This document shows, piece after piece, positions 10,380-16,683 of a DNA stretch of 55,519 nt. The first letter of the stretch is position 1. Each line of letters begins with the position of its first letter. The position numbers and the translations under genes are program-made. Origin of the DNA: Candidatus Daviesbacteria bacterium RIFCSPLOWO2_01_FULL_39_23 (GTDB taxonomy: Bacteria > Patescibacteriota > Microgenomatia > Daviesbacterales > UBA10151); NCBI GenBank assembly GCA_001776935.1, contig MFDN01000006.1:24414-79932 (forward strand). Direction: 5' to 3'. Under the pieces are notes generated by a model, which was not told the origin of the DNA, searched no databases, and was given only the letters and a program-made list of their open reading frames with translations.

Positions 10380-11231
10380 ATGGAAAGAATCTCTGTTATG
10401 AACTCACAGTTCGTAGTTGGCAAATTGATACTTATTCTTTTTGCCTTTACTTTCTTACTACTTACTGCCAACTGCTTACTGCCAACCGCTCATGCGCAGG
10501 AATCCAAAGGAATTGAGGTGACTTCAATTTACGAAATCGGAGATCCTGATGCCATAGAAGGAGATATCTTAAAAGCGTCTGATAAAGGTCTTGTACTCAC
10601 CACTATCGGCTTTGATAATAAAGTATTCGGCATAATTGCGGATCAACCTCTTTTGGTCTACCGCACAGACACCAAAGGAAAACCTGTTGTTCGGTCAGGA
10701 GTTGCCCAAATCAATGTCACCACTTTAAACGGCCCCATCAAATACGGCGACTACATCACTACTTCCACCATTGCAGGCAAAGGCCAAAAAGCTCTTGAGT
10801 CAGGATATACTGTCGGAATGGCTCTGGGAGCCTTCAGCGGAGAAGGCGCCCCTCAGGTAGACGGACCAAAGGGCAAGGTGTCTTCAGGTAAAATTCCCGT
10901 TGCCGTAAGAATTGAATATACAGAACTGACTAATCCCCGATTCGCAGGAAGACTTTTCGGTTTTATAGGTACAGCCTTTCTGGAAAATATCAGCGATCCC
11001 AAACAAGTTGGCAATGTGATCCGCCTTGTTGCCGCCGGCCTGGTTGTCCTTTTGAGTTTTGCATTCGGCTTCCTGACATTTTCAAGATCTATTGCCAAAA
11101 GCGTTGAAGCATTAGGCAGAAATCCATTGGCAAAATCCGCAATACAGTTGTCGATGATTATTAATATCGTCCTTTTGGTCGTTACCGGCATAATCGGCAT
11201 TGTGGCTTCGATACTAATTGTCCGACTTTAG
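10380..11231 (+). CDS. secreted G2-like domain fused to an ATP synthase c-like TM hairpin lacking the TM2 carboxylate
   Basis: signal peptide; [36 protein letters not shown] domain; TM1 - [22 protein letters not shown] loop - TM2 [25 protein letters not shown] with no D/E; first gene of F1 operon. Confidence 0.75.
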
Positions 11232-11301
11232 GAGGATTACAGTCCATGTCTATAATCCGACTTTAGGAGGATTACAGTCCATGTCTATAATCCGACTATA
11301 A
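11221..11301 (+). repeat. 35-bp tandem repeat, about 2.3 copies, with SD-ATG minigenes
   Basis: (tccgactttaggaggattacagtccatgtctataa)x2 + tccgactataa. Confidence 0.9.
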
Positions 11302-11418
11302 ATTAGTGGCTAGTCGCTAGAGTCTAGTGACTAGTATTCTCTTGTCTCTTAACTCTTGTCTCTTGTCTCTTGACTCTTGACTCTAGACTCTAGACTCTTC
11401 TTATCGTATTATCTCTTT

Positions 11419-12105
11419 ATGCCCCAGCTGCCTTTAAATTTAGTTAATCTAATACTGCTTTTTACTGCGATCATCGCTGCTATCCTCTATCTTCGTGAAT
11501 ACAACAAAAGAAAAAAATTGGAAGTTGAGGGTGATAAATTCTTACAAGGATTAAAAGAAAAAGGCTGGGAAACCCTGAATCAGTCCATTAAAAAATCTCA
11601 GGCTATTTTAGGAGAAGCGGAACTTGAAGGCATAAAAGCAGTTGCCGGCAATAAAGTTGAACTTTCCAAACTGGATGCAGATTATGCAAAACAAATTAAT
11701 ATTGCTTTGAATAAATCCGAACAAACCATAGCTTTGGCTCAAAATCAGCTTATGCAATTTATGCAAAACCTGCAAAAAAGAAGCGAGGCGTTTGAGGAAG
11801 CAGGCATAAAAACCGGAGAACAAAGAATAAATCAGCTTTTCGAAAAAATAGAAACCAGGGTCTCTGATTTTTTAGTGCAGACAGAACAAAAATCACTCTC
11901 GTCTATTGAACTTGAACTGAAAGCTGCCAGAGAAATGATTGATTCCTATAAAAACCAGAAATTCAAATTGATTGACGAAAATATAGTTGCCATGATGGAA
12001 CAAACACTAAGCATAGTTTTAGCCAAAAAATTGGCACTAAAAGACCAGCTGGATTTAATTTACGAAGCCTTGGAAAAGGCAAAAGCGGAAAAGTTTATTG
12101 TATAA
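11419..12105 (+). CDS. F-type ATPase b-like peripheral stalk subunit
   Basis: N-terminal TM (NLVNLILLFTAIIAAILYL) followed by long charged coiled coil; position in operon. Confidence 0.6.
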   Translation: MPQLPLNLVNLILLFTAIIAAILYLREYNKRKKLEVEGDKFLQGLKEKGWETLNQSIKKSQAILGEAELEGIKAVAGNKVELSKLDADYAKQINIALNKSEQTIALAQNQLMQFMQNLQKRSEAFEEAGIKTGEQRINQLFEKIETRVSDFLVQTEQKSLSSIELELKAAREMIDSYKNQKFKLIDENIVAMMEQTLSIVLAKKLALKDQLDLIYEALEKAKAEKFIV

Positions 12106-12113
12106 AAACTGCC

Positions 12114-12596
12114 ATGGATGAAATATTAGCAATTATTTTAAAAGACACTTATTCCCTTTCCCAGCTCAAAACCCGTTTAAGGATTTTAAAGTCTAATTTA
12201 TTAAAAACCTTTTTTGGAAACAGTGAGGAAGATGTACCTATTACTGTGCCGGATTTGAGCTGGTTAAAATCTTTACCTGCGGAATTTTATCAAAGATTTA
12301 ACAAAGATAACGTCTACCAGACTTTTTCCAACATTGAAAAAGAAATTCCTAATTTAAAAATTCTCACCATTCACTTGGCATTCGAACCGGATGATATAAC
12401 TTTAAACCAAATCAGCGCGTATGCAAGAAATACATTTTCTGCTTCCGGCTTGCTTTTAGATATTAAACAAGACTCCGCCTTAATTGCCGGAGCTGCCTTA
12501 ACCTGGAAAGGAGTTTATAAAGATTATTCCTTGCGGGCAAAACTCGATACAAAAAAAGGCGAGATTTTGCAGGAATTTAAAAAATTTTTAAGGTAA
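12114..12596 (+). CDS. F1 delta-like subunit
   Basis: C-terminal region LLLDIKQDSALIAGAALTWKGVYKDYSLRAKLDTKKGEILQEFKKFL; operon position. Confidence 0.6.
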   Translation: MDEILAIILKDTYSLSQLKTRLRILKSNLLKTFFGNSEEDVPITVPDLSWLKSLPAEFYQRFNKDNVYQTFSNIEKEIPNLKILTIHLAFEPDDITLNQISAYARNTFSASGLLLDIKQDSALIAGAALTWKGVYKDYSLRAKLDTKKGEILQEFKKFLR

Positions 12597-14049: not shown

Positions 14050-14132
14050 AATTTGACATTTGAGATTTGACATTTGACAAAGAAAAATTGTCAATTGTAC
14101 ATTGCAAATTGTCAATTGGAGGCAAAGCCGAC

Positions 14133-14996
14133 TATATGACTACCAAAGAAATAGACAGCATACTGGAAGAAGGACATTCTTTAAAAGAGATTGCTCAAGC
14201 CTATTCCGAGATTGCCAACTTAAAAATCAAACGCATCAGACAAGCAGTGGAAAGAAACCGGCTGTTTTTTGATGAAATCTTAAAAGTTTACGGCATGGTT
14301 AAATCTTTAGCCTTAAAAAAGAAAGTACTAGTTGCAAAGCCCAAAAAAAGGCTTTGTATATTGCTGACCTCAAACTACCGATTCTATGGCAATATTAATT
14401 CTTCTTTAACAAACTATTTTATCGGATCAACCCGTGAACTTAAGGATATTGACCGGATGGTGCTGGGAAAAGGCGGCATCGATTATTTTAAAGCAGTCAA
14501 GTTATTACCAAGCTTTTCTGAAATTATGCTAAAAGATGATATGCCGACAAGCGAAGAATTAGCTAATTTAGTTAATCTCAGCGAAGATTATAATCAGGTG
14601 TTGGTATTTCATTCCCGTTTTAAAAGCCTGCTGACGCAAAGCGCCACTTCCACAGACATTACCGCCACCTCCTATTATTTAAATGAATATACCAAAGCCT
14701 TTGATCCCAAAAACGCTCCGCCTTCTAACTTTATCTTTGAGCCGGAACTGCCTAAAATATTGAAATTTTTCGATAACCAAATATTAACCCTGCTGCTTGA
14801 ACAAACCTTTTTGGAATCAGAGCTTTCCCGGACCTCTTCCCGTTTTATCTCCATGGACAGCGCAGAAACAGAGGCAAATAAGTTTATTAAAGAGTACCTA
14901 AAAATTAAGGCATATGCTAAAAGAGGCCTGGAAAATAATGCAATTTTGGAAAATTTTGCCAGCATTATGGCCACAAGAAAGGACGCATATGTCTAA
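14133..14996 (+). CDS. F1 ATPase gamma-like subunit
   Basis: N-terminal helix [31 protein letters not shown] and C-terminal [25 protein letters not shown], gamma-type signatures. Confidence 0.75.
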
Positions 14997-16386
14997 CCAA
15001 ACTATGCAACAGGCTAAAGGAATAATCACTTCTATTCAGGGACAAATCGCCACCATAGAAATTGAAGGAGAAATTTTTCCCCAGTTATCTGAAATACTGG
15101 TGGCTTCACACGATAACAGTGTCATTTTAGAAGTTTTCTCACAGTCCACAGACACTACATTTGTTCAAATTCTTTCCAACCCGGACAAACTTTATAGAGG
15201 TATGCCTGTTTCAAGCACCGGCTCTGATTTAAAAATACCGGTAGGACCTGCTGTTTTGGGAAGAGTTATCGATCTGTTTGGCAATACCCGCGATAACGGC
15301 GGGCCTTTTAAGCCGGATAAGAAAACTTCCATATACGCAAAAACTCCCTCCTTAAATATCGTAAAAACTAACTACCAGATACTGGAAACCGGAATAAAGG
15401 CCATAGATTTTCTGACCCCCATACAAAAAGGCGGCAAAGTAGGCTTTATAGGCGGCGCAGGAGTGGGCAAAACCATCCTCCTTACCGAGCTAATGCATAA
15501 TGTCACTTTTAAACAAACCGGAAACGTTTTTTCGGTATTTGCAGGCGTAGGAGAAAGAATTCGCGAGGGTCAGGAACTTTTCCAAAGACTAAAGCAGTCC
15601 GGGATTTTACCTAAAACTGTTATTCTGCTGGGCCAAATGAACGAAAATGCTGCAATCAGGTTCCGGGTGGCGCTTGCTGCTGCTGCTCAGGCAGAATATT
15701 TCAGAGATGAAATGAAAAGCGATGTTTTGCTTTTTGTTGATAATATGTTTAGATTTGTTCAGGCAGGCGCAGAAGTTGCCACTCTTTTGGGCACTATTCC
15801 TTCCGAGCAAGCTTATCAGGCAACCCTTCAGACAGAAATAAGTACTTTTGAAGACAGACTTATCCCCACAGAAAGCGGGACTATCACCTCTTTTCAAAAT
15901 GTGTATGTACCTGCTGATGAAATCACAGATGCTGGGGTGACTACAGTAGTTTCGTTTTTAGATACATCAATAGTGCTTTCCCGTTCTATTGCTCAAAAAG
16001 GCATTTATCCCCCCATAGATCTTTTTCAATCCTCTTCTTCCACTTTATCAAAGGCTTTTTTAGGCGAAGTCCATTTTAAGGCTTTAACAGAATTTCAAAA
16101 GATATTAGAAAACTATAACAAACTATCACATATTGTAGCAATTGTTGGCGAGGAAGAATTATCCGCGGAAAACAGAATATTGTATAACCGGACCAAAAAA
16201 ATCATCAATTATTTAACACAACCCTTTTTTATGACAGAAACCCAAACCGGCAAAAAAGGAATCAGCGTCCCGAAAGAGACTACTGTAAACGATATCACAA
16301 TGATATTATCTGGTAAGTTAGATAACATCCCAGCAGATAAATTTATGTATATTGGATCTTTGGCAGATGCTAAAATAAGCGTATAG
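14989..16386 (+). CDS. F1 ATPase beta-like subunit
   Basis: [77 protein letters not shown]. Confidence 0.93.
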
Positions 16387-16407
16387 AGAAAAGCGTTCAG
16401 CGTTAAT

Positions 16408-16683
16408 ATGGCTAACCCAACCTTACATGTCCGGATCATTTCCCCACAACAATTAATCCTCGATACTGAGGCTGTTTCCGTATCCTCTAAAAACACACAG
16501 GGGAATTTTGATATCTTACCCCAGCACGCTAACTTCATAACCCTTATTGAAAATAACCCTATCATAATCCGTCCTCAAAACGCCAAACCTCAAGCATTTA
16601 AATTCGCCCTTGCTATTATTATGGTCACCGAAAACAAAGTAAATATTTATACATACATTCAACCAAATACGGAAAAGGGATAA
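16408..16683 (+). CDS. F1 epsilon-like subunit, N-terminal beta-sandwich only
   Basis: LHVRIISPQQLILDTEAVSVSSKNTQGNFDILPQHANFITLIEN; lacks C-terminal helical hairpin. Confidence 0.8.
   Translation: MANPTLHVRIISPQQLILDTEAVSVSSKNTQGNFDILPQHANFITLIENNPIIIRPQNAKPQAFKFALAIIMVTENKVNIYTYIQPNTEKG

Follow-up and report, generated by a model that had tools for sequence, protein, structure and literature searches.

An F1-like operon with a carboxylate-free c-like subunit, linked to giant surface proteins, in Patescibacteria

The F1-like operon and its subunits

The window analysed here is a 55,519-nucleotide (nt) stretch of Candidatus Daviesbacteria bacterium RIFCSPLOWO2_01_FULL_39_23 (assembly GCA_001776935.1, contig MFDN01000006.1, positions 24,414-79,932 of the forward strand; Patescibacteriota; Microgenomatia; Daviesbacterales; UBA10151 in GTDB), the genome of which measures 1.28 Mb at a completeness of 98%. 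The operon examined occupies window positions 10,380-16,683 and consists of seven co-directional open reading frames (ORFs) on the + strand, which encode a c-like fusion protein followed by b-like, delta-like, alpha, gamma, beta and epsilon subunits of an F-type complex. An earlier note, made from the letters of this DNA, had proposed the same order, which stands for all seven ORFs on one strand. The likely starts of b, gamma and beta, corrected by comparison with relatives, are 11419, 14136 and 14989.

10380-11231, + strand: c-like subunit, with signal peptide, extracellular beta domain (residues 45-181 or so), first transmembrane helix (TM1), GRNPLA cytoplasmic loop and carboxylate-free TM2
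11419-12105, + strand: b-like stator subunit, with a single N-terminal TM helix, a long helical region and a conserved C-terminal motif
12114-12596, + strand: delta/OSCP-like stator subunit, supported by Pfam OSCP (0.0016), AlphaFold2 and Foldseek
12598-14049, + strand: alpha-like subunit, Arg finger SVSRVG retained
14136-14996, + strand: gamma-like central shaft, start by comparison with relatives
14989-16386, + strand: beta-like catalytic subunit, with the Walker A motif and the Walker B Asp retained
16408-16683, + strand: epsilon-like subunit, N-terminal beta-sandwich only, without C-terminal regulatory helices

The alpha (ATP-synt_ab, 1.5e-66), beta (7.1e-64), gamma (1.8e-25) and epsilon N-domain (6.5e-14) matches to Pfam/NCBIfam lie above the Pfam cut-offs. 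The c-like hairpin (0.0067) and delta score under them, and no meaningful Pfam match was obtained for the b-like protein. These three assignments are backed by family alignment and, for c and delta, additionally by predicted fold. AlphaFold2 predicts delta at a predicted local distance difference test (pLDDT) score of 95, and the best PDB matches of the model in Foldseek are ATP synthase delta/OSCP subunits.

The head retains its catalytic residues. The earlier note had recognised the Walker A (GGAGVGKT) and GERxREG motifs of beta and the Arg-finger context LSVSRVG of alpha, and the key residues of both subunits are kept in the relatives sampled. The beta equivalents of K155/T156/E181/R182/D242/R246, namely the Walker A Lys and Thr, the catalytic Glu, an Arg, the Walker B Asp and the next Arg, are invariant in 86 of 86 distinct betas. 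The Arg finger is likewise invariant (95/95 alphas), and the P-loop Thr of alpha is variable. With an intact beta site and alpha Arg finger, the head appears catalytic as judged from its residues. The family alignment also places epsilon without its C-terminal helices, which inhibit hydrolysis in other bacteria.

The membrane sector is not canonical. Subunit a is absent from the window operon, as previously noted, and from the other operon loci mapped. Neighbour clustering yielded no conserved gene standing in for it; house-keeping genes (leuS, argS, comEA/comEC-like and others) and giant surface proteins were recovered, with no small membrane protein among them. The c-like protein of the window has the GRNP loop, no Asp or Glu in TM2, and Val 18 residues after the loop Pro, exactly as first described; E. 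coli c bears its ion-binding carboxylate, D61, at this position. Among 108 distinct c-like proteins it is occupied by I (39), V (24), L (17), A (12), F (7), G (4), T (4) or M (1) and never by D or E (0/108). A carboxylate anywhere in the TM2 core occurs in one of the 108 sequences, at a different position. The loop GRNPLA is almost invariant, as expected for contact with gamma/epsilon, which the loop of an F-type c-ring touches.

The AlphaFold2 model of the c-like protein (79 sequences, pLDDT 91) comprises a signal helix, a beta domain at 47-181, a helix at 189-204 and a hairpin at 207-247/249-282. The hairpin matches F-type c subunits of the PDB with Foldseek probabilities near 1.00 and TM-scores mostly of 0.73-0.87; the best matches have root-mean-square deviations of 1.3-1.8, although the E-values of these short alignments are modest (0.02 and above). 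Its profile aligns with the canonical c of the same genome at an hhalign probability of 95% (E 3e-8). The relation to subunit c, on which the earlier note had staked its reading, is upheld by both comparisons, and the hairpin as modelled is a true c-subunit fold. For the beta domain, Foldseek returned phage proteins of the capsid-decoration and appendage kinds. Signal peptide, hydropathy and homology point to an outside ectodomain, TM1 running inwards, the loop inside and TM2 running outwards, which would be the usual topology of subunit c, extended by a domain outside the cell. In two divergent lineages (L211 and L212), a single F1-like operon lies between two different c-like genes, a pairing that suggests possible heteromeric or alternative rings.

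One further ATP-synt_ab match, the third on the contig, is the transcription terminator Rho (window 31426-32901, - strand), which is unrelated to the complex.

Conservation and coexistence with the canonical ATP synthase

The c-like fusion query matches 38 of 56 near relatives, some only via the N-terminal domain inside giant proteins. The scan of named genomes used one short peptide pattern; 134 stretches were confirmed, from Daviesbacteria, Gottesmanbacteria, Levybacteria, Roizmanbacteria, Woesebacteria, Amesbacteria, WWE3 and others, and the best 80 of these 134 were kept. Full-length c-like relatives occur in many further families among the 380 genomes of the phylum that were scanned. The F1 operon accompanies the c-like gene nearly wherever this can be checked, deep lineages included; at the loci L213, L214, L218, L221 and L224, some of which lie near contig ends, the surroundings of the c-like gene yielded no F1 gene. 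The earlier note had suggested looking for the same gene order in related genomes, and all 58 loci that have the complete set of seven genes show the identical order, 57 of them on a single strand, with most junctions overlapping or at most 30 nt long. This count covers the named loci and the window; elsewhere, two or more fetched loci come from the same genome in a few cases.

In the alpha tree, all 49 sampled F1-like alphas fall on one side of a branch with an SH-like approximate likelihood ratio test (SH-aLRT) value of 87, and canonical Patescibacteria alphas form a separate group (98). N-ATPases and the Mycoplasma type 3 row also lie outside the F1-like alphas, the latter on a long branch with unsure placement. 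Two records, L098 (titled Saccharibacteria) and L147 (titled Paceibacterota), have titles that disagree with their position in this tree; mislabelled metagenome-assembled genomes or transfer are possible.

The genome-wide search for atpB and a canonical atpE, which the earlier note had proposed, found one of each in the source genome, inside a separate complete canonical operon. The canonical set a-c-b-delta-alpha-gamma-beta lies on contig C3, separate from the window contig, and a canonical full-length epsilon lies away from the canonical beta (G000:C3:50748). The complex of the window is therefore a second, paralogous one. As for a subunit a encoded elsewhere for its use, the same search returned solely the canonical gene.

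Four genomes, G029 (96% complete), G043 (99%), G045 (95%) and G026 (84%), possess the F1-like operon (loci L051, L062, L063, L046 and L065) and yielded nothing when searched for the subunit a family. In a search for alpha, their top match is the F1-like protein, at about 1e-90, compared with 1e-166 or better in genomes with a canonical alpha. The F1-like complex is thus kept where the ATP synthase appears to have been lost, with an assembly gap possible for each genome singly. Because the operon occurs without atpB or a canonical alpha, co-assembly with the canonical subunit a cannot be what maintains the complex. The proposal of the earlier note that ATP hydrolysis drives something other than proton translocation gains support from the lost ion site and from the persistence of the operon without atpB, as far as sequences can indicate.

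Giant surface proteins and a possible surface motor

Two giant genes accompany the operon in the window.

16956-27278, + strand: giant surface protein of 3440 amino acids (aa), with a MerR-type helix-turn-helix (HTH), one TM and a long repeat region
39345-46961, - strand: second giant surface protein, 2538 aa, with two MerR-type HTH, a TM, LamG and SH3_3

Both giants contain the ectodomain of the c-like subunit (E about 1e-13 to 1e-26), at residues 2935-3091 of the 3440-aa protein, which ends in a K1-lyase_C-like C-terminus, and at 2109-2235 of the 2538-aa protein. Across the loci, the giants directly next to the operon have a MerR-type HTH, one TM and long repeats, and those available at full length also contain the ectodomain of the c-like protein. 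The start of a giant MerR protein lies no more than about 3.5 kb from the operon in 10 of 11 well-assembled genomes, against 0.11 expected under simple uniform placement that ignores shared ancestry. Two main arrangements were observed: in 18 cases, chiefly from Daviesbacteria, the giant lies downstream on the strand of the operon, and in 29, chiefly from other lineages, it lies upstream in divergent orientation, indicating that the linkage is not solely one inherited arrangement. Of the 48 loci flanked by 2.5 kb or more of sequence on either side, 32 have a recognised MerR giant, and several of the remaining loci have a large surface-type ORF in its place. The giants of Gottesmanbacteria begin with phage-integrase SAM domains, not MerR, and contain collagen triple-helix repeats; in one of them (L096, 16798-20832), tandem phage-integrase SAM-like domains come first and the collagen repeats follow. 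In L227 (G099:C7:612432), a frame divergent from the operon stays open for 8840 aa and has a MerR-type beginning.

Parts for a head, a shaft, a ring and a stator are present and the ion-coupling parts are missing, which makes an ATP-driven ring acting on the surface the most economical reading. It is reasonably probable that Patescibacteria possess a second F-type rotary complex of this kind, hydrolysing ATP and performing mechanical work at the cell surface through an ion-free, ectodomain-bearing c-ring. The F1 head (alpha3 beta3 gamma epsilon) would hydrolyse ATP while b and delta, as stator, fix it to the membrane, and gamma/epsilon would rotate a ring of c-like hairpins that has neither an ion-binding carboxylate nor a subunit a opposite. 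With one extracellular beta domain per c-like subunit, the rotor would display these domains as a crown at the cell surface and would carry ATP-driven torque across the membrane. The load would most likely be the neighbouring giant fibre, with its intracellular DNA-binding-type domain, one TM and an ectodomain like that of the ring. ATP is probably used to move or energise the cell surface, not to pump ions. A larger proposal is offered more tentatively: the complex may represent an undescribed class of rotary machine, old in Patescibacteria, in which F1 and stator turn an ion-free ectodomain c-ring and thereby drive giant transmembrane fibres with cytoplasmic DNA-binding domains.

Several observations weigh against a surface motor coupled to the giants. 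The b-like protein, which has no database match, is assigned from its position, one TM and a C-terminal motif. The adjacency of the giants is partly inherited, so that the 11 genomes are not independent, and the expected 0.11 is a simple estimate; in the genome G158, a giant MerR protein is missing. Giants with the shared ectodomain occur in G014, G018 and G038, in which no full-length c-like gene was detected, and hence do not strictly need the motor. The SH-aLRT value of the F1-like alpha branch also falls under the 95 mark.

Some of the same facts can be read differently. The complex could be an ATP-driven machine for the assembly, export or turnover of giant fibres, serving their insertion, extension, release or recycling without continuous rotation at the surface. 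The giants adjoin the operon and share the ectodomain of the c-like protein, and in Mycoplasma the MIB-MIP surface system needs the type 3 complex in order to function and is proposed to involve an unknown release factor (PMC12994834). This explanation is nevertheless unlikely, since the retained b-delta stator and c-type hairpin suggest rotation of a ring, not translocation, and the giants are also found without the operon. Still less probable is that the complex acts upon the DNA-binding-type domain of the giants, or by way of it, and connects surface contact with the chromosome mechanically or by signalling, with F1 setting tension or state. In most lineages the giants carry a MerR HTH at their cytoplasmic end, and in Gottesmanbacteria tandem phage-integrase SAM domains, two unrelated DNA-binding folds in the same place ahead of one TM; however, HTH folds can bind protein too, DNA binding is a prediction, and no physical tie joins the HTH to F1.

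Two further explanations would return the complex to ATP synthase. A cryptic ion-translocating F1Fo, borrowing the canonical subunit a or using an unrecognised remote one, finds some footing in the canonical a and c of the source genome. It is largely refuted and very improbable, given that the ion-site carboxylate of TM2 is missing throughout the 108 c-like proteins and that the complex persists in genomes without atpB or canonical alpha. A decaying, functionless ATP synthase duplicate might be suspected from the relaxed alpha P-loop of some members and from isolated frame breaks, such as the split beta in L045 and the split alpha in L058. Conservation refutes it: operon order and the catalytic residues of beta are kept across deep lineages, and the complex is retained where the canonical synthase appears to be lost.

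Rotary ATPases are commonly viewed as ion machines. If a surface motor is correct, the F1-like complex would be a second and much wider case of non-ion use, in one of the largest bacterial groups. With c, stator and F1 all recognisable, the step from an ion motor to a non-ion motor could be read residue by residue. It would also provide ultra-small, host-associated Patescibacteria with a testable candidate for mechanical work at the surface, a transmembrane motor for attachment, movement or host contact. The open-access PubMed Central (PMC) literature, to which the search was confined with preprints and subscription papers outside its scope, contained no account of an additional F-type complex lacking subunit a in the Candidate Phyla Radiation (CPR)/Patescibacteria. 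Surveys that count a set as functional only if it includes subunits a and c, such as ProAD (PMC11738941), would set the F1-like complex aside as incomplete, which may explain the absence of reports.

Comparison with known rotary ATPases and related proteins

Canonical bacterial F1Fo shares homologous alpha, beta, gamma, epsilon N-domain, delta and c hairpin with the F1-like complex, and b by position and layout. The F1-like complex differs in having no subunit a, no ion-binding carboxylate, an extra extracellular c domain, an epsilon without C-terminal helices and an unusually long b. Of the features of an F1Fo enzyme, the sequences indicate a head, a shaft and a peripheral stalk, and lack an own subunit a and the TM2 Asp/Glu. 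N-ATPases (alternate F1F0) are likewise second F-type ATPases beside a canonical one, but they keep a and an ion-binding c, have another gene order and group with canonical enzymes in the alpha tree. Identity with N-ATPases is ruled out by the alt_F1F0 family scores, the c ion site and the alpha tree. The FliI/SctN export ATPases were also rejected, with scores far under the cut-offs and below those of atpA/atpD.

The predicted fold of the c-like ectodomain resembles that of phage tail/preneck appendage and capsid-decoration domains; unlike these, the ectodomain is joined to a c-subunit hairpin and also forms part of giant surface proteins of the cell.

The Mycoplasma F1-like-X0 complexes of type 2 (G1-ATPase, gliding) and type 3 (MSC_0618-0624, MIB-MIP), which the earlier note had named as analogues, likewise pair a paralogous F1 head with a canonical F1Fo. 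They share a non-canonical, charge-free membrane sector and a tie to surface proteins, which in Patescibacteria is one of genetic linkage. The type 2 enzyme is put forward as a gliding motor (PMC11864180), and type 3 as a helper of MIB-MIP, a protease system of the surface (PMC12994834). MSC_0620, the X0 subunit of type 3, has a signal peptide, a large ectodomain and two C-terminal TM helices, laid out as in the c-like protein, and no sequence homology was detected between the two hairpins; by analogy, MSC_0620 is possibly a very divergent or convergent c-like ring. Its counterpart in Mycoplasmopsis cynos (L241, 5959-8187, - strand) has a signal peptide, an ectodomain and a C-terminal TM hairpin with a basic loop.

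The type 2/3 clusters contain no delta, b or c homologue and have one 12-TM protein (PMC3369863), whereas the Patescibacteria operon has delta and a b-like subunit and lacks the 12-TM X0 protein. Against the MSC/MMOB families, alpha scores 243-319 bits (cut-offs 520-600) and beta 354-387 (cut-offs 570-850), also under the generic atpA/atpD scores. The analogy is a good one for function and fails for family membership, because the c and delta homologues and the b-like subunit kept here are absent there. In its proposed function the F1-like complex resembles Mycoplasma F1-like-X0 without being a member of that family, and it is very probably not an ion-translocating F1Fo.

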